Positions 9,973 to 34,430 of a DNA stretch of 34,430 nt are shown here, piece after piece. Position numbers and translations under genes: made by a program. The notes below the pieces were generated by a model, which did not search any database, was not told where the DNA came from, and saw only the letters and a program-made list of their open reading frames with translations. Source of the stretch: Betaproteobacteria bacterium (GTDB lineage Bacteria; Pseudomonadota; Gammaproteobacteria; Burkholderiales; Burkholderiaceae_C); the NCBI GenBank assembly GCA_025358155.1, contig JANYKR010000105.1, positions 1-34,430 on the forward strand. The letters run 5' to 3'. Position 1 is the first letter of the stretch. Each line of letters begins with the position of its first letter.

Positions 9973-10003
9973 GCGGGCGGACTTCTGCGGGTCGGTCTGC
10001 GCG

Positions 10004-10744: not shown

Positions 10745-10780
10745 CGGCGATCGTGCCTCGAATTGTCGCAGGTCGAGTTG

Positions 10781-12610: not shown

Positions 12611-12612
12611 GC

Positions 12613-12661: not shown

Positions 12662-12687
12662 CCGCGAACACAGTGAGCTGGGGGTGC

Positions 12688-13692: not shown

Positions 13693-14497
13693 TGTCGCCG
13701 ATCATTGCTTCGACCACTTCGGCAAGCGCCGCCGCAGTGTCGCCGTCGTCGGTGAGTGCATCCACGATGGCGGCGTGGCAGGCCTGTCGCAGCGGCAGGC
13801 CGGCGGCGGCAAGCCTGGCAGCCATCACCAGCAGCCGGGTGCTGGCGGTTTCTTCGAGGTCGTGTTCGGTCAGCCGGCGCAGTGCCTGCGCCAGCTGCAC
13901 CAGGCGGGCCGCCACGGCCGGCGTGCACTGGCTTTCGGCCTCGATGATCGAGCGTTCCACGGCGGGCGTCGGGTAGCCCATCGTCAGCGCCACGAACCGC
14001 TGGCGGGTGCTTGGCTTGAGGCCCTTCAACAGATTCTGGTAGCCCGGGTTGTAGGAGATCACCAGCATGAAACCGGGCGCTGCGTGCAGCAACTCGCCGG
14101 TTCGCTCGATCGGCAACACTCGGCGGTCATCGGCCAGCGGGTGCAGCACCACCGTGGTGTCCTTGCGCGCCTCGACCACTTCGTCGAGGTAGCAGATCGC
14201 GCCGCCACGCACGGCGCGGGTCAGCGGGCCGTCGCACCACACGGTGTCGCCACCGCCGATGAGATGGCGGCCCACCAGGTCGGCGGCACTCAGGTCGTCA
14301 TGGCAGCTGACCGTGATCAGCGGGCGACCCAGCCGCGCCGCCATGTGTTCGACAAAACGCGTCTTGCCGCAGCCGGTGGGGCCCTTGATCAGCAGCGGCA
14401 GCCGGCTGGCGTGCACCTGCTCGAACAGCCGGCATTCATCGCCCTGCTCCGCGTAGAACGGGGTCGCGGCCAGTTGCCGCGCGCTGACCTGCTCCAT
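13685..14497 (-). CDS. norQ: MoxR-type AAA+ ATPase NorQ
   Basis: A cytoplasmic ATPase that, with NorD, is needed to make NorCB active, probably for insertion of the non-haem iron FeB. The 270-residue protein has Walker A GPTGCGKT (about 39-46), Walker B AICYLDEVVEARKD, the sensor region VISYNPGYQNLLKGLKPSTRQRF, and the end typical of the NorQ/CbbQ group. It starts 11 bp after norB and overlaps the polyferredoxin gene. The same family includes CbbQ/NirQ, but position directly after norB makes NorQ the best name. Confidence 0.93.
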   Translation of the reverse strand: MEQVSARQLAATPFYAEQGDECRLFEQVHASRLPLLIKGPTGCGKTRFVEHMAARLGRPLITVSCHDDLSAADLVGRHLIGGGDTVWCDGPLTRAVRGGAICYLDEVVEARKDTTVVLHPLADDRRVLPIERTGELLHAAPGFMLVISYNPGYQNLLKGLKPSTRQRFVALTMGYPTPAVERSIIEAESQCTPAVAARLVQLAQALRRLTEHDLEETASTRLLVMAARLAAAGLPLRQACHAAIVDALTDDGDTAAALAEVVEAMIGDSD

Positions 14498-14508
14498 GGG
14501 GGCAGCAA

Positions 14509-16378
<1,870 letters not shown>

Positions 16379-18763: not shown

Positions 18764-18802
18764 GGGTTCATCTCCTCGGTTTGGGAAAGCCACCAGCAGC
18801 TT

Positions 18803-18837
18803 TTGCATGCCAACTGGTATGCAAATAGTGTATGCAC
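18803..18837 (-). promoter_or_regulatory. Operator-like inverted repeats upstream of the NCS1 gene
   Basis: A 22-bp imperfect palindrome (18803-18824) has arms TTGCAT and ATGCAA around CCAACTGG. It is followed by GTGTATGCAC (18828-18837). The second element differs at a single base from GTGTATACAC within the palindrome beside the other GntR gene (29363-29372). Both lie 40-75 bp upstream of the transporter start, as expected for a GntR-FCD operator. Binding by either GntR protein is inference. Confidence 0.6.
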
Positions 18838-19141: not shown

Positions 19142-20560
19142 TCAAACGGTGGCGATGCGGATCAGGTTGGTGGTGCCTGCCGTCCCGAAGGGCATGCCGG
19201 CGATCGCCACGATGTATTGCCCGGCCTGGGCAAAGTGGTCGCGCCGCGCGATGTCGCAAGCGCGCTGCGTCATTTGGTCTACATCGGCCACGTCGGCAAT
19301 GTGCACCGAATGCACTCCCCATACCAGGGCCAGCCGGCGCGCGGTCTGCAGGCGCGGCGTCAGACTCAGGATGGGGGACTCCGGCCTCTCGCGTGCGGCG
19401 CGCAGGCTGGTGTGGCCCGAGCTGGTGTAGCAGACGATGGCCGCCGCATGCAGCAAGGTCACGGCGCGGCGCATGGCGCAGCACACGGCCTCGGCCACAT
19501 CGCCACCCGGGCGCGCCGATGTGTGCGAGGTGTCGATCAACTGACGGTACTGCGGATCGGCCTCGACCTGTTCGATGATGCGGTTCATCATGTCGACCGC
19601 CACGACCGGGTACTTGCCGGAGGCCGATTCGGCCGACAGCATCACCGCATCGGCGCCGTCGTAGATGGCGGTGGCCACGTCGGACGCTTCAGCGCGCGTG
19701 GGAATCGGGCTTTCGATCATCGACTCGAGCATCTGGGTCGCCACGATTACAGGCTTGCCGAGCCTGCGGCAGGTGCGCACGATGCGTTTCTGGATCGCCG
19801 GCACACGCTCGGCGGGCAGCTCGACCCCCAGGTCGCCGCGCGCCACCATCACCGCGTCGGCCAGTGCGACGATCTCGTCCAGCCGCTCCACCGCCGACGG
19901 CTTCTCCAACTTGACGACGATGGCCGCGCGGTCACCGATCAGTTCGCGTGCTTCGCTCACGTCTTCGGGGCGCTGAACGAAGGACAGTGCGATCCAGTCG
20001 GCGCCCAACTCCAGTGCCAGCGCCAGGTCCTTTCGGTCTTTATCGGTCAGGGCGGTGATGGGCAACACGACGCCGGGCACGTTGACGCCCTTGCGCTCGG
20101 ACAGCTTGCCGCCGACCAGCACCCTGGTCTCTGCAAAGTCAGCGCCGCAGCGCTCTACCACCAGGCGCAACTTGCCATCGTCCAGCAACAACTCGGCACC
20201 TGGCACCAGCGCCGCGAAAATCTCCGGGTGCGGCAAGCGGGCGCGCCGCTGGTCGCCCGGTGCGGCATCCAGATCCAGGCGGAACGGCTCGCCAGGCGCC
20301 AGCATGACCGGGCCACCGGCAAAGGTGCCAATGCGCAGCTTGGGGCCCTGCAGATCGGCCAGGATGCCTATCGGTCGACCGGTCTCTTGCTCCAGCGCAC
20401 GCAGCACCTTGAAGCGCTCGCTGTGGTCAGCGTGGCTGCCATGGCTGAAGTTGAGGCGGAACACATCGACGCCCGACATGAACAGCTGGCGGACGACCGC
20501 TGGATCGGAACTGGCAGGGCCCAGCGTGGCAACAATCTTGGCGTTTCGGGTTCTGCGCAT
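19142..20560 (-). CDS. pyk: Pyruvate kinase
   Basis: Converts phosphoenolpyruvate and ADP to pyruvate and ATP. The 472-residue protein has the standard features: N-terminal RRTRNAKIVATLGPASS, FRLNFSHGSHADH, the active-site region VVKLEKPSAVERLDEI, MVARGDLGVELPAERVPAIQKRI and VATQMLESMIESPIPTRAEASDVATAIYDGADAVMLSAESASGKYP, and a C-terminal allosteric-type domain. It is the last gene of the gcl-hyi-glxR-glycerate kinase-pyk series, 36 bp after the kinase gene. Its place suggests it draws the 2-phosphoglycerate made from glyoxylate, via enolase, to pyruvate. It is probably a second, pathway-dedicated isozyme rather than the housekeeping one. Confidence 0.95.
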   Translation of the reverse strand: MRRTRNAKIVATLGPASSDPAVVRQLFMSGVDVFRLNFSHGSHADHSERFKVLRALEQETGRPIGILADLQGPKLRIGTFAGGPVMLAPGEPFRLDLDAAPGDQRRARLPHPEIFAALVPGAELLLDDGKLRLVVERCGADFAETRVLVGGKLSERKGVNVPGVVLPITALTDKDRKDLALALELGADWIALSFVQRPEDVSEARELIGDRAAIVVKLEKPSAVERLDEIVALADAVMVARGDLGVELPAERVPAIQKRIVRTCRRLGKPVIVATQMLESMIESPIPTRAEASDVATAIYDGADAVMLSAESASGKYPVVAVDMMNRIIEQVEADPQYRQLIDTSHTSARPGGDVAEAVCCAMRRAVTLLHAAAIVCYTSSGHTSLRAARERPESPILSLTPRLQTARRLALVWGVHSVHIADVADVDQMTQRACDIARRDHFAQAGQYIVAIAGMPFGTAGTTNLIRIATV

Positions 20561-20596: not shown

Positions 20597-21952
20597 TCAA
20601 CCCCCTCGGGGGGGCGTCGGCAACGCCGCCTGGGGCTGCTCGTTGGTGGGCGCGGCGATGAAGATCGCGCGGAAGTCGTTGACGTTGGTCAGCGTGGGGC
20701 CGGTGATCACCGAGTCACCCAGCGCCTGGAAGAACCCATGGCCGTCGTTGTTGGCCAGGCTGTCCTGGGGTTTGATGCCCAGGGCCCAGGCGCGCGCCAA
20801 CGAGTCAGGCCGGAGCAGGGCGCCTGCAATCTCCTCCTGCCCGTCGACACCATCGGTATCGCCGGCCAGCGCGTGGATGCGCGGGTGGCCGTTCAGGACC
20901 ACGCCCAGTGACAGCAAAAATTCAACATTGCGGCCGCCGCGGCCATCACCGCGAAGGGTGACCGTGGTCTCGCCGCCAGACAGCAGCACGCAGGGTGCCG
21001 GGACGGGCTGGCCGCGCTCTGCAACCTGCAGCGCAATGCCAGCCAGCACCTTGCCCACGTCGCGGGCTTCGCCTTCGATGGCGTCACCCAGGATATGGCA
21101 GGCCACGCCAGCGCCCTGGGCCACAGCCGCCGCCGCCTCCAGCGCCATTTGCGGCGTGGCGATCATGCGTATCCGGGCTCCGGCCAGGCGGGGGTCACCG
21201 GGCTTGATCGACTCGCCGCGGCCGCTTTGCAGCACCTCCAGCACCGGGGGCGGCAGGTCGATGCCATAGCGGCGAACAATGGCCAGCGCATCGGCGCAGG
21301 TTGTGGGGTCGGCCACGGTCGGCCCAGAGGCGATGTCCATCGGGTTGTCGCCAGGCACATCCGAGATCAACAGCGTCAGCACCTGCGCGGGATGGCAGGC
21401 CGCCGCCAGCCGGCCACCCTTGATCGCCGAGAGGTGCCGCCGCACGCAATTCATCTCGCTGATGGTGGCGCCAGATTTCAGCAGGGCGCGGTTGACAGCC
21501 TGCTTGTGTTCCAGCGTCAGCCCCGGCAGTGGCAGCGGCAGCAAGGACGAGCCGCCGCCGGAGATCAGGCACAACACGAGGTCTTCCGCATTCAGCCCTT
21601 GCACCAACCCCAGCAGACGCTCGGCGGCCTGCAGCCCGGACGCATCCGGCACCGGGTGCGCCGCCTCCACGATCTCGATGTGCTGGCAGGGCACGCCGTA
21701 GCCGTAACGCGTGACGACCAGGCCGGCCAGTTGTTCAGGCGCGCCTGACCAATGCGCCTCGACCGCGCTCGCCATCGCTGCCGAAGCCTTGCCGGCGCCG
21801 ATCACGATGAGCCTGCCGCGGCCCAGGCTTTGGGGCGACGGCAGATGCGGCGGAATGCAGCGCGACGGTTGTGCCGAGGCGATGGCTGCGGCAAACATCC
21901 GGGTCAGCAAATCGCTGGGCTGTGCGGTGGCTGGCACTGGGGTAGAGGTCAT
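20597..21952 (-). CDS. Glycerate 2-kinase (MOFRL/TtuD type)
   Basis: Class II glycerate kinase, phosphorylating D-glycerate to 2-phosphoglycerate. The 451-residue product has the N-terminal GK-II domain (GRGRLIVIGAGKASAAMASAVEAHW; LISGGGSSLLPLPLPGLTLEHKQAVNRALLKSGATISEMN) and the C-terminal MOFRL domain (LSGGETTVTLRGDGRGGRNVEFLLSLG; AGDTDGVDGQEEIAGA). It starts 17 bp after glxR. The last residues (PQAALPTPPRGG) are encoded by a GC-rich palindromic stretch just before the stop, so the C-terminus may have been extended by a repeat. Similar genes are named ttuD or garK-like; the operon position supports use in glyoxylate assimilation. Confidence 0.92.
   Translation of the reverse strand: MTSTPVPATAQPSDLLTRMFAAAIASAQPSRCIPPHLPSPQSLGRGRLIVIGAGKASAAMASAVEAHWSGAPEQLAGLVVTRYGYGVPCQHIEIVEAAHPVPDASGLQAAERLLGLVQGLNAEDLVLCLISGGGSSLLPLPLPGLTLEHKQAVNRALLKSGATISEMNCVRRHLSAIKGGRLAAACHPAQVLTLLISDVPGDNPMDIASGPTVADPTTCADALAIVRRYGIDLPPPVLEVLQSGRGESIKPGDPRLAGARIRMIATPQMALEAAAAVAQGAGVACHILGDAIEGEARDVGKVLAGIALQVAERGQPVPAPCVLLSGGETTVTLRGDGRGGRNVEFLLSLGVVLNGHPRIHALAGDTDGVDGQEEIAGALLRPDSLARAWALGIKPQDSLANNDGHGFFQALGDSVITGPTLTNVNDFRAIFIAAPTNEQPQAALPTPPRGG
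20601..20627. repeat. Double hairpin at the glycerate kinase/pyk junction
   Basis: Two palindromes lie in series at the 3' end of the glycerate kinase gene: CCCCCTCGGGGG (20601-20612) and GGCGT-CGGCA-ACGCC (20613-20627). They overlap its last codons. They could reduce read-through into pyk or stabilise the upstream mRNA. The C-rich/G-rich arm is similar in style to the element at 12651-12660. Confidence 0.5.
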
Positions 21953-21969: not shown

Positions 21970-22875
21970 TCAGTCAGCCTGCTGGCCAATCTCGAAGTTC
22001 GAGAGCTTCTCCAGCGCGCGCACCATGCCCGAATGGTCCCAGGCGGCACCGCCATGCGAGATGCAGGCGCTGAACAACTGTTGCGCCTGTGACGTGGCGG
22101 GCAAGGCCAGGCCCAAAGACTTGGCGGCGCCCAGCGCGAGGTTCAAATCCTTCTGGTGCAGCGCAATGCGGAACCCGGGGTCGAAGGTCCGCTTGATCAT
22201 GCGGTCGCCCAGGATGTCGAGGATGCGCGATGTGGCGAGCCCTCCCATCAGGGCCTGGCGAACCTTGCTCGGGTCAGCACCGGCCTTGGCAGCGAACAGC
22301 AGGCCTTCGGCCACGGCGTTGATGGTCAGCGCCACCACGATCTGGTTGGCCACCTTGCAGGTCTGCCCGTCACCACTGCCGCCCACCAGGGTGATGTTCT
22401 TGCCCATCAGCTCGAACACCGGCTTGACGCGCTCGAACACCTCGGCCTTGCCGCCGACCATGATCGACAGCGTGGCATTCTTGGCGCCGACATCACCGCC
22501 GGACACCGGAGCGTCCAGGTAATCGCAACCCAGGGCCTCGATACGCTTGGCGAACTGCTTGGTCTCCACGGGCGAGATCGAGGACATGTCCACCACCACC
22601 TTGCCGGCCGACAAGCCCAGGGCAACGCCCGATTCGCCGAACAAGGCGTCAGCCACATCCGGTGTGTCGGGCACCATGGTGATGATGATGTCCGAGCTCT
22701 CCGCCACGGCCCTGGCGCTGAGGCACTTTGTCGCCGGGCCGTTGGCAATTGCCTCGGGCAGCGCGCTGCGGGTGTAGACAAAGAGTTGGTGGCCCGCCTG
22801 GAGCAAATGCCCGGCCATGGGGGTGCCCATGATGCCCAGGCCGATGAAACCGATCTTGAGGGGTTGCGCAGTCAC
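21970..22875 (-). CDS. glxR: 2-hydroxy-3-oxopropionate (tartronate semialdehyde) reductase
   Basis: NAD(P)H-dependent reduction of tartronate semialdehyde to D-glycerate. The 301-residue protein is a 3-hydroxyisobutyrate dehydrogenase-family enzyme: Rossmann motif GFIGLGIMGTPMAGHLLQAGH, substrate loop DAPVSGGDVGAKNATLSIMVGG, and catalytic lysine region GQTCKVANQIVVALTINAVAEG. I chose GTG 22875 (VTAQPLKIGF), which has AAGGA 6-7 bp upstream. The frame is open far upstream, but that stretch overlaps hyi in another frame and is not homologous. The gene follows hyi by 46 bp. The symbol garR is also used for this function. Confidence 0.93.
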   Translation of the reverse strand: MTAQPLKIGFIGLGIMGTPMAGHLLQAGHQLFVYTRSALPEAIANGPATKCLSARAVAESSDIIITMVPDTPDVADALFGESGVALGLSAGKVVVDMSSISPVETKQFAKRIEALGCDYLDAPVSGGDVGAKNATLSIMVGGKAEVFERVKPVFELMGKNITLVGGSGDGQTCKVANQIVVALTINAVAEGLLFAAKAGADPSKVRQALMGGLATSRILDILGDRMIKRTFDPGFRIALHQKDLNLALGAAKSLGLALPATSQAQQLFSACISHGGAAWDHSGMVRALEKLSNFEIGQQAD

Positions 22876-22921: not shown

Positions 22922-23701
22922 TCAGCGCACGAAGGGCTGGTGCCACCCCAGGCCGGCTTCGGTGGTGGTTGCGGGCTTGTATTCACAGCCAACCCAGCCG
23001 CTGTAGCCGATGCGGTCGAGATGGGAGAACAGAAACCCGTAGTTGATCTCGCCCGTGCCGGGTTCGTTGCGGCCCGGGTTGTCGGCGAGCTGGATGTGGC
23101 CGATGCGCGCCAGGTGCTTCTGCATCGTCGCCGCCAACTCACCCTCCATCCGCTGCGCGTGGTAAATGTCGTACTGCACGAAGGCATTGTCAGCCCCCAC
23201 CTCGTCGAGGATCTCGAGCGCCTGGGCCGTTCGGTTCAGGTAGAAGCCCGGTATGTCGCAGGTGTTGATCGGCTCGATCAGCAAGCGCAGGCCGGCCTGC
23301 TTCAGCGCCGTCGCGGCGAACTTGAGGTTTTCGACCACGGTTGTGCGCAGCTGCGCCTCACTGGCCCCCGCAGGCGCCTTGCCGAGCAGGCAATTGAGTT
23401 GCGTGACGCCCAAGGCCTGTGCGTACTCGATGGCCTGGGCGACGCCCGCACGGAACTCGGCTTCGCGCCCGGACAAACAAGCGATGCCACGCTCGCCTGC
23501 GTCCCAATCGCCGGCCGGCAGGTTGTGCAACACCAGCGTCAAACGGTGGGCGTCGAGACGGGCCTTGATGTCACCCACAGCAAACGCGTAGGGAAACAAG
23601 AACTCAACGGCCGTGAAGCCTGCCTTGGCGGCGCGCTCGAAGCGGTCGAGAAAGGCAACCTCGGTGAACAACATCGTGAGGTTCGCAGCGAACTTGGGCA
23701 T
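22922..23701 (-). CDS. hyi: Hydroxypyruvate isomerase
   Basis: Interconverts hydroxypyruvate and tartronate semialdehyde, next to glyoxylate carboligase. The 259-residue TIM-barrel protein starts MPKFAANLTMLFTEVAFLDRFERAAKAGF and carries the AP-endonuclease-2-like/isomerase motifs LIEPINTCDIPGFYL, QYDIYHAQRMEGEL and IGHIQLADNPGRNEPGTGEINY. ATG 23701 has an AGGAG 7 bp upstream. The gene begins 31 bp after the gcl stop, in the usual gcl-hyi-glxR order. Confidence 0.94.
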   Translation of the reverse strand: MPKFAANLTMLFTEVAFLDRFERAAKAGFTAVEFLFPYAFAVGDIKARLDAHRLTLVLHNLPAGDWDAGERGIACLSGREAEFRAGVAQAIEYAQALGVTQLNCLLGKAPAGASEAQLRTTVVENLKFAATALKQAGLRLLIEPINTCDIPGFYLNRTAQALEILDEVGADNAFVQYDIYHAQRMEGELAATMQKHLARIGHIQLADNPGRNEPGTGEINYGFLFSHLDRIGYSGWVGCEYKPATTTEAGLGWHQPFVR

Positions 23702-23732: not shown

Positions 23733-25523
23733 TCAGTCGAGCATGCCGACGGCAGTGGGCGCATCGGCCTTGCCGGCCGCAAGCTCTTCGAACTCGACGA
23801 CGTTGTCGATCTCGGTGCCCATGGCGATGTTGGTCACACGCTCCAGGATGATCTCGATCACCACGGGCACGCGAAACTCGGCCATCCAGGCTTCGGCTTG
23901 CTTGATGGCCGGCGCGATCTCTTCTTGCTTGTGCACCCGAATGCCCTTGCAGCCCAGGCCCTCGACCACCTTCAGATGGTCGACGCCGTAGCTCTGCGTA
24001 ACCTCATGCGCTGGCGTGTTGATGTTCTCGAAGCCCAACTGCACGCAGTAATCCATCGTGAAGCCGCGCTGCGACTGCCGGATCAGCCCCAGGTAGCTGT
24101 TGTTCACGACCACGTGGATGTAGGGCAGCTTGAACTGCGCACCCACTGCCAGCTCTTCGAGCATGAACTGGAAGTCGTAGTCGCCGGACAGGGCCACCAG
24201 CTTGCGCGTCGGGTCGGCGGCGCGCACGCCCAGCGCTGCCGGAATCGTCCAGCCCAGCGGGCCGGCCTGGCCGCAGTTGATCCAGTGGCGCGGGTGGTAG
24301 ACATGCAGAAACTGTGCGCCGGCGATCTGCGACAGGCCGATCGTCGAGACGTAGGTGACGTCACGGCCGAACGCGTTGTTCATGCACTGGTACACACGCT
24401 GCGGCTTCATCGGAACGCTGTCGAAATTGGTCTTGCGCAGGTACTGCACGTCAGACTTGCGGGCTGAACATTCAGCAGCCCAAGCCGTGCGGTCGCGCAG
24501 TTTGCCAGCGGCCTTCCACTCCTGGGCCACCTCGACAAACAGTTGCAGCGCCGCCTTGGCATCGCTGACGATGCCGTAGTCGGGAGCAAACACACGGCCG
24601 ATCTGCGTTGGCTCGATATCGACGTGGATGAACTTGCGGCCCTTGCAATAGACCTCGGGTGACCCGGTGTGGCGGTTGGCCCAGCGGTTGCCGATGCCCA
24701 GCACAAAGTCGCTGGCCAGCATCGTGGCGTTGCCGTAGCGGTGGCTGGTCTGCAGGCCGCACATGCCCGCCATCAGCGGGTGATCATCAGGGATGCTGCC
24801 CCAGCCCATCAGTGTGGGGATCACCGGGACGCCGGCGATCTCGGCAAACTGTTGCAGCAGGTCGGACGCATCGGCGTTGATGATGCCGCCGCCGGCCACG
24901 ATCAGCGGACGCTCGGCGCCATTGAGCATCTCGATGGCCTTCTCGATCTGCTTGCGCGAGGCGGTGGGCTTGTACACCGACAGCGGTTCGTAGGTGTCGA
25001 TGTCGAACTCGATCTCGGCCATCTGCACGTCGAACGGCAGGTCGATCAATACCGGGCCGGGGCGACCGGAACGCATCAAGTGGAAGGCCTGCTGGAACGC
25101 GCGCGGCACCTGGGCCGGCTCCATCACGGTGGTGGCCCACTTGGTCACCGGCTTGGCGATGGTTGCAATGTCGACCGCCTGAAAGTCTTCCTTGTGCAGA
25201 CGAGCGCGCGGCGCTTGGCCGGTGATGCACAGGATCGGGATCGAGTCGGCCTGTGCGGAATACAAACCCGTGATCATGTCGGTGCCGGCAGGCCCCGAGG
25301 TGCCGATGCACACGCCGATGTTGCCGGCCTTGGCCCGCGTGTAGCCCTCGGCCATGTGGGATGCACCCTCGACATGCCGAGCCAGGATGTGGCCAATCGA
25401 CTGGCGCTCGCGCAGCTGCGCATAGAGCGGGTTGATCGCCGCACCCGGCACGCCGAAGGCCTGGGTTACGCCTTCTTTCTCCATCACCAAAACCGCGGCC
25501 ATTGCGGCCTTCATCTTTGCCAT
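23733..25523 (-). CDS. gcl: Glyoxylate carboligase
   Basis: Thiamine-diphosphate- and FAD-dependent enzyme that joins two glyoxylates into tartronate semialdehyde and CO2. The 596-residue product has an N-terminal Pyr domain ([31 protein letters not shown]), a central FAD-type domain and a C-terminal PP domain ([15 protein letters not shown]...[15 protein letters not shown]). Residue 51 is valine in RHVEG, the hallmark of Gcl, which lacks the usual ThDP-activating glutamate. ATG 25523 has GGAG 8 bp upstream; the upstream open frame is non-homologous. It leads the operon gcl-hyi-glxR-glycerate kinase-pyk and receives glyoxylate from allantoin breakdown. Confidence 0.97.
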
Positions 25524-25886
25524 TGAGGTCTCCTGCTGTCGATAGGAGAATGTTCGTCGCTTGCCCGCGCGCTGAGAAGACCAGTCCGGTGATAAGCAAT
25601 ATTCCAAGGCGCTATAAATGGGCGGTGGCCGAGGAGAAGTGGCTGCCAGATCGACACGAAGGTCCTGCTCGTTTCGCAGGATGCGCAAAGATCGCTTCGT
25701 TGGTCGCACCGGCAGCCAGGCCGTAGTGCACGCGCGGCTGCGATGGGGTGGGCGGTGTGACCTTGAATCGGGGTGGTCTTTCGACAGGTGAAGCGAGTGG
25801 CTCGGCCGAGGCCGCGCCAGAGCGAAGAAAGGGGAGAACGGGTGTGTGGTGCGAGGGCCCCGAGGCCCTGCCAGGCTGAGCGAGCT
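25524..25886. other. Promoter-containing gap upstream of gcl
   Basis: 363 bp with no supportable gene between the NCS2 stop and gcl. An AT-richer block at about 25590-25620 (GATAAGCAATATTCC then CTATAAATG) stands out in GC-rich surroundings. It lies 70-95 bp upstream of gcl, so it is the best place for the gcl promoter or an activator site. I could not assign clear -35 and -10 elements, and no GTATAC palindrome of the GntR type occurs here. Confidence 0.45.
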
Positions 25887-27389
25887 TCAGTGGGCTTCGG
25901 CGGATTTGGCGGCCTCTATCGCGCCGGCTTCATCGCCTCGTGCACCATTGAAGAAGATGTTCAACACAACCGCCGCGACTGCGGTAAGCAGGATCCCTGA
26001 CTCGAGCAACGGGTGCAGGGAGTGCGACATCTGCTGGGTCCAGCGCGGTGCCACCAGCGGGATCAAGCCGAAGCCGATGGCCAGGGCCACGATGTAGAGG
26101 TTGTTTCGGTTGCCCTTGTAATCCACCGTGGACAGGATGCGGATGCCGGTGGCTGCCACCATGCCAAACATCACCAGGCCAGCACCACCCAGCACAAACG
26201 GGGGGATCGCCTCGACGAACGCGGCCATCTTCGGCAGCATGCCCAGCACGACCATGATGATGCCGCCGGCCACGCAGACCCAGCGGCTCTTCACACCGGT
26301 GACACCCACCAGACCGACGTTCTGCGAGAAGCTGGTGTAGGGGAAGGTGTTGAAGATGCCGCCGATCAGCGTGCCCAGGCCGTCGGTGCGCAAGCCTGCC
26401 GCCAGTTCGGGCTGGCTGATCTTCTTGCCGGTGATGTCGGACAACGCCAGGAACATTCCGGTGGATTCGATCATCACCACAACCATCACCAGCACCATGG
26501 TCAGGATCATCACCGGGTCGAAGGTGGGCATGCCAAAGGCGAACGGCGTGACAACGTCGAACCAGTGGGCCTTGCCAACCTTGTCAAAGTTCATCTTGCC
26601 CATGGCCATGGCCACCGCGCAACCCGCCACGATGCCCAGCAACACCGAGATGTTGGCAACAAAGCCACGGGCGTACTTCACCAGCAACAAGATGAAGACC
26701 AGCACCGCGGCAGCAACCGCCATGTTGTCCAGCGCGCCGTAGCTCAGGTTGTCGACCATCGGGATCGGCCCTGTCAACTTGATCGCCGGGGCTGATGCAC
26801 CAGCAGGCATCGACGCCGCCGCCTCCAGCGCTTTTGCCTTGGCACCGTCGACCATCGCCACCAGTTTGGGGACGTCCACACTCTGCGCCAGCGGGGCGGG
26901 GCCGCCCATCGCCCAGCCCACGCCCACCCGCATCAAGCTGATGCCGATGATGGCGATGATGGTGCCGGTGACCACCGGCGGGAAGAACCGCAGCAACTTG
27001 CTGACGATGGGCGCAATGATCATCGAGACAATGCCGGCACCGATGATGGCGCCGAAGATCGCTCTCGCACCGTCAACCCCAGGCACTGCGTTGGCAAACG
27101 CCACCATCGGCCCGACCGCTGCGAAGGTGACGCCCATCATCACCGGCAGCTTGATGCCGAACCATTTTGTGAAGCCCAGCGACTGGATCAGCGTGACGAT
27201 GCCGCAGGCAAACAAGTCGGCCGAGATCAGCAGCGCCACTTGCTCCGGGCTGAGCTTGAGCGCACGGCCGACGATCAGCGGCACCGCGATCGCACCGGCA
27301 TACATCACCAGCACATGCTGCAAGCCAAGTGCGGCAAGGCGGCCGGTGGGCAATTTCTCGTCCACCGGGTGGACATCTGAAGTCGTCAT
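25887..27389 (-). CDS. NCS2-family xanthine/urate permease
   Basis: Proton- or sodium-coupled purine importer of the NCS2/NAT family, 500 residues with about 12-14 hydrophobic segments. The NAT signature QNVGLVGVTG is present, preceded by TFPYTSFS. Early segments (LGLQHVLVMYAGAIAVPLIVG) are typical of UraA/XanQ/UacT proteins. ATG 27389 (MTTSDVHPVDEK) has GGAG about 9 bp upstream. It is encoded directly downstream of puuD on the same strand, with 103 bp between them, so urate or xanthine are the most likely substrates. Uracil cannot be excluded from sequence alone. Confidence 0.9.
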   Translation of the reverse strand: MTTSDVHPVDEKLPTGRLAALGLQHVLVMYAGAIAVPLIVGRALKLSPEQVALLISADLFACGIVTLIQSLGFTKWFGIKLPVMMGVTFAAVGPMVAFANAVPGVDGARAIFGAIIGAGIVSMIIAPIVSKLLRFFPPVVTGTIIAIIGISLMRVGVGWAMGGPAPLAQSVDVPKLVAMVDGAKAKALEAAASMPAGASAPAIKLTGPIPMVDNLSYGALDNMAVAAAVLVFILLLVKYARGFVANISVLLGIVAGCAVAMAMGKMNFDKVGKAHWFDVVTPFAFGMPTFDPVMILTMVLVMVVVMIESTGMFLALSDITGKKISQPELAAGLRTDGLGTLIGGIFNTFPYTSFSQNVGLVGVTGVKSRWVCVAGGIIMVVLGMLPKMAAFVEAIPPFVLGGAGLVMFGMVAATGIRILSTVDYKGNRNNLYIVALAIGFGLIPLVAPRWTQQMSHSLHPLLESGILLTAVAAVVLNIFFNGARGDEAGAIEAAKSAEAH

Positions 27390-27449
27390 GCTTGTCTCCT
27401 GCTTTTTGCGGTTTACGGTCGGGGGATATGGGCCACTTGGCCGAGCCCG

Positions 27450-27485
27450 CCCAGCGTGCTGCGGGCCTGCCGCAGACACGCTGGG
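27450..27485 (-). terminator. Strong hairpin after puuD
   Basis: A nearly perfect 15-bp stem: outer arms CCCAGCGTG/CACGCTGGG, inner arms CTGCGG/CCGCAG, one bulged A and a 5-nt loop. It begins seven bases after the puuD stop. No T-tract follows, so it may be a partial terminator or RNA stabiliser between puuD and the NCS2 gene. A second palindrome, GGCCACTTGGCC, lies at 27431-27442. Confidence 0.55.
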
Positions 27486-27492
27486 TTGAACA

Positions 27493-28689
27493 TCAGTTCA
27501 CGGACGCCCCAGCTTCAAACCACCGCTTGATCAGTGCGCGCTCGTCGTCGGTGATCTGGGTCGCGTTGTTCATCGGCATCACCTTCAGCACCACGGCTTG
27601 CTGGTAGACAGCCTGTGCGTGCTTGGTGAGTTCGGCCGCCGAATCAAGGCGCACGTTCTTGCTCTGCAGGGCCGGGCCGTGGCACATCACGCAACGCTGT
27701 GTGACGATGCCTTGCACCTGCGCGAAGCTGGGTGGGGTCACGACCGAAGAGACGGGCTGCGGATCGGGCTTGGTGGCCCAGACGGTGACCATCAGCAGCA
27801 GCGTGCCGATGACCGCAAAGTGCCACGGCACCGGCTTGCCGTAAGCCAGCGCCTTGTGGCGCAATGCAAACGACAAACGAATCAGCGCCCCGGCCACCAT
27901 GATCGCCACCAGCACCAGCCAGTTGTTCTTGGCCCCATAGGTGAACCCGTAGTGATTGCTCATCATGGAGAACAGCACCGGTAGCGTAAAAAACGTGTTG
28001 TGCACGCTGCGCTGCTTGCCGCGCTGCCCGTGCACCGGGTCGACCGGCTGCCCCGCCTTGATGGCCGCCACCACCGTGCGCTGGCCCGGGATGATCCAGA
28101 AAAAGACGTTGCCACTCATCGTGGTGGCCACCATCGCGCCAACCAGCAGAAAGGCCGCACGACCGGCGAACAAGTGGCAGGACAGCCACGAGGCGAACAC
28201 GATCAACACGAAAACGCAGCCACCCACCACCAGGTCGCCGTTCTTGCCGCGACCCAGGGTACGGCAGATCAGGTCATACAGCACCCAGAACGCCACGAAG
28301 AACGCCAGCGCGGTGGCGATGGCCGCTGTGGGCGACCAGTCGAACAAGGTCTTGTCGATGAGAAAGGTGCTTGCGTTGAACAGGTACAGCACCGTGAACA
28401 GCGCGAAGCCCGTCAACCAGGTGGAGTAGCTCTCCCACATCGACCAGTGCAGCTGATCGGGCACGTAGCCCGGAGAGACCGGGTACTTTTGGTGGCGGTA
28501 AAAGCCGCCGCCGTGCACGCCCCATTGCTCGCCGCCAACGCCTTTGTCGGCATCGGCCTTGTTCTTGGGTGGCGTCAGGCTGTTGTCGAGCGAGACAAAG
28601 TAGAACGACGCGCCAATCCAGGCGATGCCGGTGATGATGTGGGCCCAGCGCAGCAGCAGATTGGCCCAGTCAAGCAGGTAGGCGTCCAT
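27493..28689 (-). CDS. puuD: Urate hydroxylase PuuD, membrane protein with cytochrome c domain
   Basis: Oxidises urate to 5-hydroxyisourate, replacing soluble uricase and passing electrons to the respiratory chain rather than making H2O2. The 398-residue product has a large N-terminal membrane domain with about 8-9 hydrophobic segments (LLLRWAHIITGIAWIGASFYFVSLDNSL; QLHWSMWESYSTWLTGFALF). The C-terminal cytochrome c domain has CVMCHGP, a few tens of residues from the end of a last membrane helix. This fusion is the described PuuD architecture. uraH lies 205 bp upstream on the same strand; the NCS2 permease follows. Confidence 0.94.
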   Translation of the reverse strand: MDAYLLDWANLLLRWAHIITGIAWIGASFYFVSLDNSLTPPKNKADADKGVGGEQWGVHGGGFYRHQKYPVSPGYVPDQLHWSMWESYSTWLTGFALFTVLYLFNASTFLIDKTLFDWSPTAAIATALAFFVAFWVLYDLICRTLGRGKNGDLVVGGCVFVLIVFASWLSCHLFAGRAAFLLVGAMVATTMSGNVFFWIIPGQRTVVAAIKAGQPVDPVHGQRGKQRSVHNTFFTLPVLFSMMSNHYGFTYGAKNNWLVLVAIMVAGALIRLSFALRHKALAYGKPVPWHFAVIGTLLLMVTVWATKPDPQPVSSVVTPPSFAQVQGIVTQRCVMCHGPALQSKNVRLDSAAELTKHAQAVYQQAVVLKVMPMNNATQITDDERALIKRWFEAGASVN

Positions 28690-28894: not shown

Positions 28895-29251
28895 TCAAGA
28901 ACCCCGGTAGGTTGAATAGGCCCATGGGCTCACGAGCAAGGGGACGTGGTAACGGCCGGTGGCGTCGGCAATGCCGAAGTCGAGTGACACATCGTCGATG
29001 AACGGCGGCTGCGGCAGCTGCACACCTTTGGCACGAAAGTACGGGGCCACCGAGAACACCAGCCGGTAGCAGCCCGCGGCCATGGTCTGCGCGTCGAGCA
29101 GGGCGCCTCCGTCGTTGCGGCCATCCGCGTTGAGGATGAAGCTGTTGATCGTCTCGACCGTCTGGCCATCAACCCGTTGCAGCTTCACTGCCATTCCTGC
29201 GGCCGGGCAGCCGTTCATCGTGTCAAGCACATGGGTGCTGAGGTGTCCCAT
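28895..29251 (-). CDS. uraH: 5-hydroxyisourate hydrolase UraH
   Basis: Hydrolyses 5-hydroxyisourate to OHCU in urate breakdown. The 118-residue protein is transthyretin-like, with N-terminal LSTHVLDTMNGCPAAGM, the middle NADGRNDGGALLD, and the diagnostic C-terminus RYHVPLLVSPWAYSTYRGS. No signal peptide is seen, so it is cytoplasmic. ATG 29251 has AGAGGA about 6 bp upstream; longer starts lack homology. It is divergent from the GntR gene at 29410 and shares a 158-bp control region with it. Confidence 0.95.
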   Translation of the reverse strand: MGHLSTHVLDTMNGCPAAGMAVKLQRVDGQTVETINSFILNADGRNDGGALLDAQTMAAGCYRLVFSVAPYFRAKGVQLPQPPFIDDVSLDFGIADATGRYHVPLLVSPWAYSTYRGS

Positions 29252-29361
29252 AAGATTCCTCTCGGTTGGGTGGGCTGGGAAAGAAGGTAGGCGTTGCAGG
29301 CCCTGCGCTGCGGTTGACGGGCACTGCGGCGGGCACAGGTTCGACTTGCGCAATGCCGTGA

Positions 29362-29409: not shown

Positions 29410-30189
29410 ATGTCGACAGCCATGCCAGCAGGGCGCGCCAACCTCAAGGTCATACAGCCTGGCGAAGCGCCGACATCGGCGCCGCGGCCGGCGAATCGCA
29501 GCAAGATCAAGAAGCCCGGCAAAGATCCCCTGGTTGGCAACACCCAGCGCATCGTCGCGTCGATCACGGCGGCCATCATCGGGCGGCGGCTGATGCCGGG
29601 CACCAAGTTGTCCGAGCAAAAGATCGCCGACATCTTCAAGGTCTCACGCACCCTGGTTCGTCAAGCCCTCAATCAACTCAGCCGTGATCGGCTGGTGGTG
29701 CTGGAGCCCGCACGCGGCGCGTTTGTGGCAACACCCAGTGTCGAAGAAGCGCGGCAGGTGTTCGAGGTCCGTCAGATCCTGGAGGCGGCGTTGACGCGGC
29801 GCTTGTGCGCGGTCATCAGCGACGCGCAGGTCCTGGAACTGCGGCAGCACCTGAGCGCTGAACGCGAGGCCGTCGCCAATGCCGATGTGTCGGGGCGCAC
29901 GCATTTGCTGGCTGACTTCCATGTGGTGTTGGCACGGATGCTGGGCAACGACGTGCTGGCGCAGTTGTTGACCGATCTGCTGACCCGCTCTTCGCTGATT
30001 GCGCTGATGTACCAGTCATCGCACTCGGCCGAGGCCTCGCTGGCCGAACACGTTGCCATCGTCGATGCGTTCGAGCAGCGCGATGTCAAGGCAGCCGTGC
30101 GCTTGACGCTTGAACACCTGGAGCATGTGGAACAGAACCTCCGGTTGAACCCGCATGAGACCGACCTTGCCCAACTGCTGAATCCGTGA
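29410..30189 (+). CDS. GntR-family regulator (FCD type) of the urate/allantoin cluster
   Basis: A 259-residue regulator. An unusual basic, Ala/Pro-rich N-terminal extension (about residues 1-38) precedes the winged helix (SEQKIADIFKVSRTLVRQALNQLSRDRLVVLEP) and the FCD effector domain (LLADFHVVLARMLGN; LAEHVAIVDAFEQRD; LTLEHLEHVEQ). It is clearly related to the GntR protein at 16543. The start is divergent from uraH across the AGTGTATACACT palindrome, and its stop overlaps the puuE start, so it is co-transcribed with puuE, the fusion gene and the M20 gene. Autoregulation and repression until a purine intermediate appears are inferred. Confidence 0.88.
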   Translation: MSTAMPAGRANLKVIQPGEAPTSAPRPANRSKIKKPGKDPLVGNTQRIVASITAAIIGRRLMPGTKLSEQKIADIFKVSRTLVRQALNQLSRDRLVVLEPARGAFVATPSVEEARQVFEVRQILEAALTRRLCAVISDAQVLELRQHLSAEREAVANADVSGRTHLLADFHVVLARMLGNDVLAQLLTDLLTRSSLIALMYQSSHSAEASLAEHVAIVDAFEQRDVKAAVRLTLEHLEHVEQNLRLNPHETDLAQLLNP

Positions 30190-31139
30190 TGCCCATGAGC
30201 CCTACCTACCCGCGAGACCTGAAGGGCTACGGCCGCCACGGGCTACACGCCAACTGGCCAGGCCAGGCGCGTGTCGCCTTGCAGTTCGTCCTCAACTTTG
30301 AGGAAGGTGGCGAAAACTCGGTGCTGCACGGCGATGCCGGCAGCGAGCAGTTCCTGTCCGAGATGTTCAACCCGGCCGCCTTTGCTGCCCGCCACCTGAG
30401 CATGGAAAGCATCTACGAGTACGGCTCGCGGGTGGGCGTGTGGCGGCTGCTGCGCGAGTTCGAGCGGCGTGGCCTGCCGCTGACGGTGTTCGGCGTCGGC
30501 ATGGCGCTGGAGCGCTGCCCTGAGGTGACGGCGGCGTTTTGCGACCTCGGTCACGAGATCGCCTGCCACGGCTGGCGCTGGATCAACTACCAGACCATCG
30601 ACGAAGCCACCGAGCGCGAGCACATGGCGCTGGGCATGGCTGCGATCCAAGGGCTGACGGGTGATCGGCCCCTGGGCTGGTACACCGGCCGCGACAGCCC
30701 GAACACACGCCGGCTGGTGGCCGACCACGGCGGCTTCGAGTACGACAGCGACTACTACGGCGACGACCTGCCCTTCTGGTTGCAGGTCAAGAAGACAGAC
30801 GGCAACCGCGTCCCGCATCTCGTGGTGCCCTACACCCTGGATTGCAACGACATGCGCTTCGCGCTGCCGCAAGGCTATTCGCACGGCGACGAGTTCTTCG
30901 AGTACCTGCGTGATGCCTTCGATGTCCACTACGCCGAGGGCGACGAGCGGCCATCGATGATGAGCATCGGCATGCATTGCCGGATGCTGGGCCGCCCAGG
31001 TCGCATGCGTGCCTTGCAGCGCTTTCTGGACCACATCGAAAAGCATGACCGGGTCTGGGTCAGCCGGCGCATCGACATTGCACGCCACTGGAGAGCCGCC
31101 CATCCCTTCGACCCCAAGACGGCTTTTGCCTGGGACTGA
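30189..31139 (+). CDS. puuE: Allantoinase PuuE (polysaccharide-deacetylase-like)
   Basis: Opens the hydantoin ring of allantoin to give allantoate. The 316-residue product belongs to the NodB-like family, distinct from the amidohydrolase-type AllB. Family features include YPRDLKGYGRHG near the N-terminus, FVLNFEEGGENSVLHGD, MESIYEYGSRVGVWRLL, EIACHGWRWINYQ, GWYTGRDSPNTRRLV and a C-terminal MSIGMHCRMLGRPGR. ATG 30189 overlaps the gntR stop by one base; a GTG at 30186 and an ATG at 30195 are alternatives. The next gene starts two bases after its stop. Confidence 0.94.
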   Translation: MPMSPTYPRDLKGYGRHGLHANWPGQARVALQFVLNFEEGGENSVLHGDAGSEQFLSEMFNPAAFAARHLSMESIYEYGSRVGVWRLLREFERRGLPLTVFGVGMALERCPEVTAAFCDLGHEIACHGWRWINYQTIDEATEREHMALGMAAIQGLTGDRPLGWYTGRDSPNTRRLVADHGGFEYDSDYYGDDLPFWLQVKKTDGNRVPHLVVPYTLDCNDMRFALPQGYSHGDEFFEYLRDAFDVHYAEGDERPSMMSIGMHCRMLGRPGRMRALQRFLDHIEKHDRVWVSRRIDIARHWRAAHPFDPKTAFAWD

Positions 31140-31141: not shown

Positions 31142-32917
31142 ATGATCTCGCTGGAACAACTCAACACGGCATCCGAGGCAGACTTCATCGGCTTGCTTGA
31201 CGGCACCTACGAACACTCGCCCTGGATCGCACAACGGGCCTGGTCGCACCGGCCCTTTAAGAGCCTGGTGCAGCTCAAGCTGGCACTTGCCGAAGTGGTG
31301 CGGAAGTCGGGTCGCGATGCGCAACTGGGGCTGATACGCGCTCACCCTGAGCTGGCGGGCAAGGCGATGGTGGCCAAGACACTGACCGCCGAATCCACCC
31401 ACGAACAAGGCAAGGCAGGCCTCACCGATTGCACGCTTGCAGATTTTGCGCACATCCAGCAACTCAACGCCGACTACCACCTGAAGTTCGGCTTCCCGTT
31501 CATCCTGGCGGTACGCGGCCCGCGCGGCCTGGGCCTGCCCAAGGCCGAAATCATTGCGAGCTTCGAGCGCCGGCTCGACAACCACCCCGACTTTGAACTT
31601 GCCGAGTGCTTGCGCAACATTCACCGCATCGCCGAGATCCGGCTCAACGACAAGTTGGGTCACGAGCCCGTGCTGGGCAATGACGTGTGGGACTGGGCAG
31701 AACGCCTGGCAACCCACAGCGACCCGGGGTACGCCGAAAGGGGCGAGCTGACTGTCACCTACCTGACCGACGCGCACCGCGCTTGCGCGCAGCGGTTGGC
31801 CCACTGGATGCGCACCGATTGCGGATTCGATGAGGTCGAGATCGACGCCGTCGGCAATGTCGTCGGCCTCTACCACGGCACCGACCGCCAAGCCAAGCGC
31901 CTGTTGACAGGTTCGCACTACGACACCGTGCGCAACGGCGGCAAGTACGACGGCAGGCTGGGCATCCTGGTGCCGATGGCCTGCGTTCGAGAACTGCACC
32001 GGCAAGGCCGGCGCCTGCCCTTCTGCTTCGAGGTGGTCGGCTTTGCCGAAGAAGAGGGTCAGCGCTACAAGGCCGTGTTTCTCGGTTCGGGCGCGCTGAC
32101 GGGGCACTTCGATCCGTCCTGGTTCGATCAGAAAGACGCCGACGGCATCACCCTGCGCGCTGCGATGCTGCATGCCGGGCTGTGCCCTGACGACATTCCA
32201 AAACTGAAACGAGATGCCGGCCGCTACCTCGGCTTCGTCGAGGCGCACATCGAACAAGGGCCGGTGCTCAATGAGCTGGACCTGCCGCTGGGCATCGTGA
32301 CCTCGATCAACGGCAGCGTGCGCTATCTCGGCGAGATTGTCGGCATGGCCAGCCACGCCGGCACGACCCCGATGGACCGGCGGCGCGACGCGGCCACCGC
32401 TGCTGCTGAACTGGCGCTCTACGTCGAGAAGCGCGGCGGCGCTGAGCCCAATCTCGTGGCCACGGTGGGCATGCTGGAGGTGCCCAGCGGCTCAATCAAC
32501 GTTGTGCCGGGGCGCTGCAAATTCAGCCTCGACATCCGCGCCACCACCGACCCAGTGCGTGACGCCTGTGCGGCAGACGTTCGCGCCGAACTGGCGGCCA
32601 TCTGCAAACGCCGTGGCCTGCATTTCAAGCTCGAAGAGACGATGCGCGCCGCTGCGGCGCCCAGCGCACCCGCCTGGCAACAGCGCTGGGAGCGTGCGGT
32701 CGAGGCACTCGGCCTGCCGCTGTTGACCATGCCCAGCGGTGCCGGCCACGACGCGATGAAGCTGCATGAGGCCATGCCCCAGGCCATGCTGTTCATGCGT
32801 GGCCTCAACGCCGGCATCAGCCACAACCCGCTGGAAGCGATCACCAACGACGACACCGATCTGTGTGTGCGCGCATTCCAGAACCTTCTTGAACAACTTG
32901 CCACGGAGCTTTCATGA
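31142..32917 (+). CDS. Fused OHCU decarboxylase (UraD) - allantoate amidohydrolase
   Basis: A 591-residue bifunctional enzyme. Residues 1 to about 170 are UraD, converting OHCU to S-allantoin: YEHSPWIAQRAW, QLGLIRAHPELAGKAM with catalytic H68, STHEQGKAGL with E88, and FGFPFILAVRG. Residues about 180-591 are an M20/M28-type allantoate amidohydrolase: GSHYDTV (H259), KYDGRLG (D270), GFAEEEGQRY, AHIEQGPVL, GMASHAGTTPMDRRRDA, MPSGAGHDAM and GLNAGISHNPLE. All metal-ligand motifs look intact. The two activities flank PuuE in the pathway and PuuE is encoded just upstream. The stop overlaps the M20 gene by four bases. It would make ureidoglycine/ureidoglycolate and ammonia. Confidence 0.94.
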   Translation: MISLEQLNTASEADFIGLLDGTYEHSPWIAQRAWSHRPFKSLVQLKLALAEVVRKSGRDAQLGLIRAHPELAGKAMVAKTLTAESTHEQGKAGLTDCTLADFAHIQQLNADYHLKFGFPFILAVRGPRGLGLPKAEIIASFERRLDNHPDFELAECLRNIHRIAEIRLNDKLGHEPVLGNDVWDWAERLATHSDPGYAERGELTVTYLTDAHRACAQRLAHWMRTDCGFDEVEIDAVGNVVGLYHGTDRQAKRLLTGSHYDTVRNGGKYDGRLGILVPMACVRELHRQGRRLPFCFEVVGFAEEEGQRYKAVFLGSGALTGHFDPSWFDQKDADGITLRAAMLHAGLCPDDIPKLKRDAGRYLGFVEAHIEQGPVLNELDLPLGIVTSINGSVRYLGEIVGMASHAGTTPMDRRRDAATAAAELALYVEKRGGAEPNLVATVGMLEVPSGSINVVPGRCKFSLDIRATTDPVRDACAADVRAELAAICKRRGLHFKLEETMRAAAAPSAPAWQQRWERAVEALGLPLLTMPSGAGHDAMKLHEAMPQAMLFMRGLNAGISHNPLEAITNDDTDLCVRAFQNLLEQLATELS

Positions 32918-34164
32918 CTTCAGCCGCCCAATACAGCGCACTCGACGCCTGGGTTGACGCCCACTTCGACGAAGAGGTGCGCTTTCTGCAAGAACTGGTT
33001 CGCGTGCCCACCGACACGCCGCCCGGCAACAACGCGCCGCATGCCGACCTAACGGCCGAACTGCTGGCGCAGATGGGCCTGACCGCCGAGAAGCATGTTG
33101 TGCCGGCCGCTGAGGTCAAGGCAGCCGGGCTCGAGAGCATCACCAACCTGATCGTGCGTCGCCGCTACGGCGAAGGCAAAACAATCGCGCTGAACGCCCA
33201 CGGCGATGTGGTGCCTCCCGGCGAAGGCTGGACCCATGACCCGTACGGCGGCGAGATCGTCGACGGCAAGATCTACGGCCGCGCCACCGCCGTGAGCAAG
33301 TGCGACATGGCCAGCTTCAGCTTTGCGGTGCGCGCGCTGGAGTCGCTGAATGCCAAGCTGGCCGGCAGTGTGGAGCTGCACTTCACCTACGACGAAGAAT
33401 ACGGCGGTGAACTCGGCCCCAACTGGCTGCTGAGCAAGGGCCTGACCAAGCCCGACCTGATGATGGCCGCCGGCTTCAGCTACCAAGTGGTGGTGGCGCA
33501 CAACGGCTGCCTGCAGTTGGAGGTCGTCGTGCATGGCGATATGGCCCATGCGGCCATCCCCGACAGCGGTACCGACGCGATGCAGGGCGCGGTGCAGATC
33601 CTCAATGCGCTGTACGCCTTGAACCACGACTACCTGAAAGTGATGTCCAAGGTCGAAGGCATCACCCATCCGTACCTCAACGTGGGCCAGGTCAATGGCG
33701 GCACCAACACCAATGTGATTCCCGGCAAGGTGGTGCTCAAGCTCGATCGGCGCATGATCCCGGAAGAAGATCCGTCCGAAGTCGAAGCCTCCCTGCGCCG
33801 CACCATCGAGCAAGCGGCCGCTGCGTTCAATCCGCCGCGTGGCGGCAAGAAACTGCGCGTTGAAGTCAAGCGCTTGCTGCTGTCACGCGCAATGAAGCCC
33901 TTGCCCGGCAACCAGCCGTTGGTGCAGGCGATTCAAAAGCACGCGCTGGCGGTCTTCGGCGAGCCGATCCCTGCCTTGGGCACGCCGCTGTACACCGACG
34001 TTCGCCTGTACGTGGAGCGTGGCATACCGGGCGTGATCTACGGCGCCGGGCCGCGCACGGTGCTCGAATCGCACGCCAAGCGCGCCGACGAGCGCCTGGA
34101 CCTGCAAGACCTGCGGCGCGCCACCAAGGTGGTGGCGCGAACCCTGCTCGATCTGTTGCAGTGA
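32914..34164 (+). CDS. M20-family metallohydrolase, candidate for a late ureide step
   Basis: A 416-residue ArgE/DapE-like hydrolase, cytoplasmic, translationally coupled (ATGA overlap) to the UraD-AllC fusion. The first metal motif NAHGDVVPPGEGW (H96, D98) and the TYDEEYGG motif (E161, E162) are clear, and the C-terminal histidine is in LESHAKRADERLD. The usual bridging-aspartate motif is replaced by GRATAVSKCDM (D131 may serve), and the common EP metal-ligand dipeptide is not evident (AAGFSYQVV). HAAIPDSGTDAM matches the lid-domain histidine region. Possible roles are ureidoglycolate or ureidoglycine hydrolysis, N-carbamoyl or N-formyl amino acid cleavage, or a peptidase. Context favours the ureide pathway, but the substrate is not shown by sequence. 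Confidence 0.8.
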   Translation: MTSAAQYSALDAWVDAHFDEEVRFLQELVRVPTDTPPGNNAPHADLTAELLAQMGLTAEKHVVPAAEVKAAGLESITNLIVRRRYGEGKTIALNAHGDVVPPGEGWTHDPYGGEIVDGKIYGRATAVSKCDMASFSFAVRALESLNAKLAGSVELHFTYDEEYGGELGPNWLLSKGLTKPDLMMAAGFSYQVVVAHNGCLQLEVVVHGDMAHAAIPDSGTDAMQGAVQILNALYALNHDYLKVMSKVEGITHPYLNVGQVNGGTNTNVIPGKVVLKLDRRMIPEEDPSEVEASLRRTIEQAAAAFNPPRGGKKLRVEVKRLLLSRAMKPLPGNQPLVQAIQKHALAVFGEPIPALGTPLYTDVRLYVERGIPGVIYGAGPRTVLESHAKRADERLDLQDLRRATKVVARTLLDLLQ

Positions 34165-34288: not shown

Positions 34289-34430
34289 TCAGCTGCCACG
34301 GTAGGTCGCGCAGCTCCACGGCGTGCACAGCATGGGCACGTGGAAATGCTGCTGGGTGTCAAACAGCGCGAAGCGAACCGGCATCACGCGGTCGACGAAC
34401 ATCGCCTCAGGCGCCACCTTCTGCGATGCG
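34289..34430 (-). CDS. uraH: Second 5-hydroxyisourate hydrolase-like gene, 3' part only
   Basis: The minus strand encodes the last 46 residues of a transthyretin-like protein, cut by the window edge. The end reads FALFDTQQHFHVPMLCTPWSCATYRGS followed by TGA at 34291-34289. HFHVP and the terminal YRGS are the diagnostic UraH C-terminal motifs. It differs from the complete copy at 28895 (RYHVPLLVSPWAYSTYRGS), notably in two extra cysteines, so it is a paralogue and not a recent duplicate. It is convergent with the M20 gene. Whether the full gene is intact cannot be seen. Confidence 0.87.
   Translation of the reverse strand, partial: ASQKVAPEAMFVDRVMPVRFALFDTQQHFHVPMLCTPWSCATYRGS

Follow-up and report, generated by a model that had tools for sequence, protein, structure and literature searches.

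A variant M20 hydrolase linked to UraD-AllC is a candidate ureidoglycine-consuming enzyme of bacterial purine degradation

Allantoate amidohydrolase (AAH) has ureidoglycine as its product, and the enzymes described for the steps beyond it belong to several families. The ureidoglycine aminotransferase UGXT (HpxJ/PucG; 3nnk, 3isl) yields oxalurate and glycine, AllE/YlbA (ura-cupin, TIGR03214) is a cupin, and plant ureidoglycolate amidohydrolase (UAH) is an M20-superfamily member of the AllC branch. PMC3793230 describes the lyase AllA as releasing urea and plant UAH as freeing ammonia from ureidoglycolate. Here we analyse a variant M20 protein encoded in a purine-degradation cluster of a Betaproteobacteria bacterium (assembly GCA_025358155.1, contig JANYKR010000105.1, positions 1 to 34,430; this whole stretch of 34,430 nucleotides is called the window). 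Its branch of the superfamily is the DapE/ArgE-like one. As judged from sequence, the genes of the window cover urate to allantoate and glyoxylate to pyruvate, and the passage from ureidoglycine to glyoxylate has no assigned gene. We think it rather probable that the M20 protein removes (S)-ureidoglycine, an unstable compound made by the adjoining AllC half, and thereby joins the allantoate to the glyoxylate genes. The two genes concerned are:

32914..34164, + strand: variant M20 hydrolase, 416 aa, proposed ureidoglycine-consuming enzyme (Pfam, linkage, co-occurrence)
31142..32917, + strand: UraD-AllC fusion, OHCU decarboxylase plus a hydantoinase/carbamoylase-family amidase half (TIGR03164 and TIGR01879 above cut-off)

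The M20 open reading frame (ORF) is intact, with no internal stops, and its ATG sits in the TGA of UraD-AllC (ATGA), which is the 4-base overlap reported in a preliminary description of this DNA. Both Pfam domains, M20 (PF01546, E=8e-26) and M20_dimer (PF07687, E=9e-19), score above their cut-offs, and the best Foldseek matches of the protein are M20 enzymes. Among the best 25 of its 53 NCBIfam matches no cut-off is reached: the ArgE/DapE deacylase profile TIGR01910 scores 214.7 bits, below the required 217.6. Neither the AllC/UAH-branch profiles (TIGR01879, TIGR03176) nor the ura-cupin profile TIGR03214 appears among these 25, the domains being those of M20. Such proteins are at present annotated vaguely as 'ArgE/DapE family deacylase', and an assigned function would correct this annotation. 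Among the papers listed by open-licence literature searches on the ureide step, no title or abstract opening named such an M20. A scan of viral contigs matched 44 stretches by pattern, none of which encodes a relative.

To describe its distribution, 150 genomes, each at least 90% complete, were drawn evenly from the family of the window. Presence was called at an E-value better than 1e-100 for the M20 and better than 1e-80 for UraD-AllC, with a limited number of first-look candidates scored per genome. The M20 was found in 124 genomes and UraD-AllC in 126: both were present in 124, neither in 24, the fusion only in two and the M20 only in none (Fisher p=8e-26, shared ancestry being ignored). 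This linkage is far beyond chance. In one of the two fusion-only genomes (G105), the contig edge falls inside the fusion gene. Three genera contributed a carrier and a non-carrier each, and in all three the M20 and the fusion change together. In 121 of the 124 carriers the distance between the two genes is below 600 bp; the rest are a pair at 618 bp (G120), a pair on fragmented contigs (G045) and a genome in which the M20 adjoins urate oxidase and the fusion is on another contig (G102).

Enzymes of the alternative routes were sought in the same 150 genomes. Allantoicase was found in a single genome, which has AllA and lacks both the M20 and the fusion. AllE exceeded its cut-off in one genome, again one with neither gene; ura-cupin matches at 1e-3 were obtained in 29 genomes, and the 28 below the cut-off were taken as unrelated cupins. 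In 39 of the 124 carriers, all first-look candidates of the UraD-AllC query were scored and the fusion was the sole match; no AllC-branch UAH was therefore found in them, and 34 of the 39 lack AllA as well.

A scan of public genomes yielded at least 578 confirmed relatives, of which the best 80 were kept, a set biased towards the closest ones. UraD-AllC sequence was detected by tblastn within ~0.5 kb upstream of the M20 in 79 of these 80 loci. In the other (L052, 8973-11251), puuE directly precedes the M20 and the locus holds no UraD-AllC. Across 79 loci and the window, 80 rows in all, the gene caller recognised both genes in 77 and placed the 4-base overlap in 37, a soft count because it also chose the start codons. 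ORFs of unannotated loci came from our own codon-score caller, which missed most of one AAH (L138) that tblastn recovered. Upstream of the M20, at a median distance of ~4.5 kb, 48 loci additionally have a conserved small ORF (e.g. L057, 244-747), usually near XdhC and HIUase genes.

A search for more distant relatives covered 397 genomes belonging to the phylum, with an M20 match at 1e-60 or better in 25, and plasmids, where 36 records matched at 1e-30. Nineteen of these more distant M20 genes were examined, seven from plasmids and 12 from genome loci (two in G238). An unfused AAH lies directly upstream in ten of the 19 (Azospirillum twice, Roseomonas, Aminobacter, G501, G238, G242, G358, G353 and G417), the M20 proteins being 49-58% identical to that of the window. 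Partner AAHs exceeded the NF006775 allantoate amidohydrolase cut-off in all seven scanned of the ten, the partners in L126, L138 and L140 being left out. In Aminobacter and G238, puuE, AAH and M20 stand in a row, and in G383 (L130) UraD-AllC is ~2.6 kb from the M20, with urate oxidase adjoining. The linkage to AAH is tight and extends to other families and to Alphaproteobacteria. Two plasmids of Azospirillum carry AAH and M20 as a two-gene unit (L122, 7698-10212; L126, 7686-10209), with no other ureide gene annotated in ~9 kb on each side.

The source genome (5.1 Mb, 98% complete) was searched as a whole for enzymes of the missing step. Profile searches gave no match to AllA (PF04115) or AllE (TIGR03214) anywhere in it. 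Of 13 Aminotran_5 matches, the six strongest were typed as IscS, SerC, PhnW, kynureninase and two AGT-like proteins, and the other seven all scored below 27 bits. The AGT-like proteins were considered as a UGXT encoded elsewhere and rejected: they are nearest to serine-glyoxylate aminotransferase and only 24-28% identical to UGXTs adjoining AAH in other bacteria. The UraD-AllC query had one further match besides the fusion, which was counted only, and an AllC-branch hydrolase may therefore exist elsewhere in the genome. The preliminary description had found neither an AllA-type lyase nor a ureidoglycine aminotransferase in the cluster, and the genome-wide searches agree within their sensitivity. 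Its suggestion that the M20 supplies the ureidoglycolate or ureidoglycine step would have been refuted by a lyase or hydrolase elsewhere in the genome together with a lack of allantoin linkage; no AllA was found there, and linkage of the M20 to AAH is tight. As a hypothesis the suggestion is thus upheld, and we prefer ureidoglycine to ureidoglycolate as the probable substrate.

That preference comes from AAH loci without the M20, eight of which, all on plasmids, were chosen by us from 60 of 137 AAH records. In Deinococcus the order is AAH-allantoinase-AllE (AllE 288 bits, cut-off 200), and the M20 seems to hold the place of this unrelated cupin. In Zymomonas, Pseudoalteromonas and Serratia, AAH is adjoined by UGXT, of an unrelated aminotransferase family; the three UGXTs are 55-67% identical, and that of Pseudoalteromonas matches 3nnk at E=7e-190. 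Because AllE or UGXT is present in four of the eight loci, the M20 seems to occupy the slot of a ureidoglycine-consuming enzyme, and ureidoglycine is preferred to ureidoglycolate on the same grounds. Searched by tblastn at 1e-5, these UGXT and AllE proteins gave no hit in the sequence around the M20 genes, which covers at most ~10 kb on each side and often less.

The distribution of urease bears on the product. No strong urease match was found in 24 of the 124 carriers; weak partial matches occur in three of the 24, and in two of these three they exceed the Pfam cut-off. Urea carboxylase exceeded its cut-off in one of the 24 (and in one of ten genomes, urease-positive ones or the source genome, that were added for comparison), leaving 23 of 124 carriers with neither a strong urease nor urea carboxylase, and ammonia is for this reason favoured over urea. 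AllA, where it occurs in carriers, is on the contig of the M20 in seven, at least 149 kb away, and on other contigs in 18. It is present in 25 of 100 urease-positive and in none of 24 urease-negative carriers (p=0.004), or in 25 of 102 and none of 22 if the two weak matches are counted as urease (p=0.007). A urea-releasing lyase was consequently rejected as the role of the M20, given the 23 carriers and the restriction of AllA to urease-positive ones. The M20 occurs whether or not urease is present, as would be expected of an ammonia-releasing enzyme, although excretion of urea may also be possible. In G062 and G071, AllA lies within ~12 kb of a second AAH-like gene, 37-38% identical.

The closest enzymes of known structure are the DapE/ArgE M20 deacylases (TIGR01910; 7uoi, 5vo3, 3pfo), which gave the best profile and Foldseek matches and share with the window protein the fold, the catalytic Glu pair, the HxD motif and the dimer-domain His. 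In DapE, two metals are held by five ligands (H, bridging D, E, E/D, H), and M20 enzymes use a general base Glu, a dimer-domain His and residues that hold a carboxylate. Alignments were made against profiles with solved DapE structures and within the family with one ArgE. K129 aligns with the Lys of DxK, which places V127 at the bridging-Asp position; A186-G187 occupy the EP position, and the canonical C-terminal His corresponds to position 389, which is Lys in every one of the 80 close rows (the window and 79 loci). By sequence alignment, three of the five ligand positions are thus taken by V127, A186 and K389, and the window protein differs in this from the deacylases. Position 389 is His in 17 more distant family rows and Lys in the window clade, G304 and G383; those 17 rows lack the residues of the other two canonical positions, bridging Asp and EP Glu. 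H387 might be taken for the ligand; among the 80 close rows this position holds His in 44 and Asn in 36.

The preliminary description had noted an altered bridging DxKG motif and no clear EP pair, both borne out by these alignments, to which K389 adds a third altered position. It had also asked whether D131 could bridge two metals. As a register-shifted bridging Asp, D131 was rejected since K129 stays in register and D131 falls four residues past the bridging position in the profile alignment. The predicted structure (mean pLDDT 76.5) falls below 50 at 188-196, 354-361 and 377-385 and is too uncertain there to judge D131, which may still have a spatial role. The HxD motif, the catalytic Glu pair and the lid His are present, and H96, D98, E161, E162 and H212 do not vary in any of the 80 rows. 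D131 and D181 are invariant too, and N267 and the DRR segment are conserved. Retention of HxD, the Glu pair, H212, N267 and the DRR segment argues for an enzyme that is still active, its metal site being altered.

A second M20 enzyme, 5-nitroanthranilate aminohydrolase (5k8m/5k8p), uses the fold for hydrolytic deamination, its reaction being taken from the PDB names and PMC10306065. It matches the window protein by profile at E=2e-17 over residues 36-408 and ranks seventh in Foldseek; for the last 116 residues it is the top PDB match (E=0.004). No His was aligned at the C-terminal ligand position in the weak, gapped alignment of that part. The two differ in that the substrate of the aminohydrolase is aromatic, and identity is 20-22%. 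The enzyme provides a precedent for an M20 fold that carries out C-N chemistry different from deacylation.

The reading that we prefer, and consider fairly probable, is that the window protein represents a third, non-homologous ureidoglycine-consuming enzyme, built on an M20 fold whose two-metal site has been dismantled. Substrate, product and metal number are what we infer here; the sequence, the linkage, the co-occurrence, the failure to find a known alternative and the altered ligand positions are observed. The enzyme would use the M20 scaffold with E161 as general base and H212 of the dimer domain, and N267 and R279/R280 would hold the carboxylate. The usual two-metal centre would not be used; H96 and E162 are left with the invariant D98, D131 and D181, so that a single metal or a rearranged site is probable. 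The remaining ureido group of ureidoglycine would most likely be hydrolysed by the M20, and the resulting gem-diamine would collapse to glyoxylate and ammonia, so that one enzyme would end the pathway. A bolder version is possible and held only tentatively: the M20 would turn ureidoglycine straight into glyoxylate, ammonia and CO2, an independently evolved third solution by which much of this Burkholderiales family, and several Alphaproteobacteria as well, could do without AllE, AllA, UAH and UGXT.

Several observations weigh against a ureidoglycine-consuming M20. One genome (G006; C16:22795-24561, L141) has a complete UraD-AllC and no M20 match at 1e-3, a real exception among the 150. AllA, found in 28 of these genomes, coexists with the M20 in 25 of the 124 carriers, and in Aminobacter urea-transport and urease genes lie downstream of the M20. 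Four of the eight M20-less AAH loci (Skermanella, two Rhizobium and C. gilardii) have no AllE or UGXT next door. The AllC half of the window fusion is below both allantoate-named cut-offs (NF010373, 993 of 1087 bits; NF006775, 457 of 479 bits). In a tree of 37 rows, the window clade groups with G304 and G383 at full support above an unresolved base, and the AAH-linked rows form no single supported clade. Eight of the 19 distant M20 genes are away from AAH (L124, L127, L128, L129, L134-L137). Their neighbours, typed for five of these loci, include amidohydrolases, a CN hydrolase and an Asp/Glu/hydantoin racemase (L124), a sarcosine-oxidase-like protein and an amidohydrolase (L128), amidohydrolases and a D-Glu cyclase (L134), a kynureninase (L135) and a bestrophin-like protein (L137), and these eight proteins likely act on other substrates. 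As they carry the same AVSK[SC]D-type motif, it does not by itself predict a ureide substrate and was rejected as a ureide signature. The loss of three ligand positions could, finally, mean that catalysis was lost.

That last point leads to the view of the M20 as a pseudo-enzyme, a non-catalytic partner or stabiliser of AAH. The apparent translational coupling (the overlap called in 37 of 77 rows, softly counted) would agree with it, as would the replacement of ligands, including His by Lys. The invariance of H96, D98, E161, E162 and H212 argues against it, and so do relatives with no AAH nearby and the G102 gene, found beside urate oxidase on a contig other than that of the fusion; we regard this role as very improbable. 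The relatives away from AAH, together with the nearest solved structures being DapE/ArgE-type deacylases, instead suit an enzyme for some other compound handled alongside purine nitrogen, such as an N-acyl or N-carbamoyl amino acid or an opine-like compound. In the family of the window, near-perfect co-occurrence and adjacency with UraD-AllC speak against such a substrate, as does the pathway step that has no assigned enzyme, and we judge it quite unlikely.

A closer competitor would keep the protein in the pathway as a UAH: ureidoglycine would pass to ureidoglycolate non-enzymatically, and the M20 would then free ammonia and glyoxylate. Plant UAH, an ammonia-releasing ureide hydrolase according to PMC3793230, resembles the role proposed here to that extent. 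The same genes (AllA, AllE) are missing from the source genome on either account, and urease-poor carriers fit ammonia release. The M20 is nevertheless linked to AAH, whose product is ureidoglycine, and beside AAH without the M20 it is AllE or UGXT that was seen, not AllA. The sole allantoicase genome has AllA and no M20, and AllA and the M20 coexist in 25 genomes. UAH activity thus appears unlikely, though it deserves some weight.

Recycling of nitrogen from purines and ureides is widespread among bacteria that live in soil or with plants. With the gene pair in 124 of 150 family genomes and no enzyme assigned to the ureidoglycine step, the M20 would, if the proposal is true, close this gap, and it would be an M20 enzyme apparently working without the usual two-metal centre.

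The other genes of the cluster in the window are:

30186..31139, + strand: PuuE allantoinase (TIGR03212, 491 bits, above cut-off)
29410..30189, + strand: GntR/FCD regulator (profile match)
28895..29353, - strand: 5-hydroxyisourate hydrolase (HIUase/transthyretin family)
27493..28689, - strand: membrane-type urate oxidase (Urate_ox_N)
25887..27479, - strand: xanthine permease family (TIGR03173 above cut-off)
23733..25709, - strand: glyoxylate carboligase, start probably near 25523 (profile match)
22922..23701, - strand: xylose-isomerase-like TIM barrel (PF01261), putative hydroxypyruvate isomerase (name inferred from position)
21970..22875, - strand: tartronate semialdehyde reductase, longest ORF extending to 23187 (TIGR01505 above cut-off)
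20597..21952, - strand: glycerate 2-kinase (DUF4147/MOFRL)
19142..20560, - strand: pyruvate kinase
17303..18808, - strand: NCS1-type permease, cytosine/purine/allantoin family
34289..34430, - strand: second HIUase-like gene, C-terminal end, cut by the window edge (family judged by eye from its TYRGS end)

This one ureide cluster thus holds two HIUase-type genes, at 28895-29353 and, cut by the window edge, at 34289-34430. Further from the M20, positions 2889-15939 hold a denitrification-type block with a cytochrome D1 heme-domain protein, a siroheme decarboxylase-like protein, radical SAM, tetrapyrrole methylase and VWA proteins, and a COX1-family subunit that is NorB-like by context.

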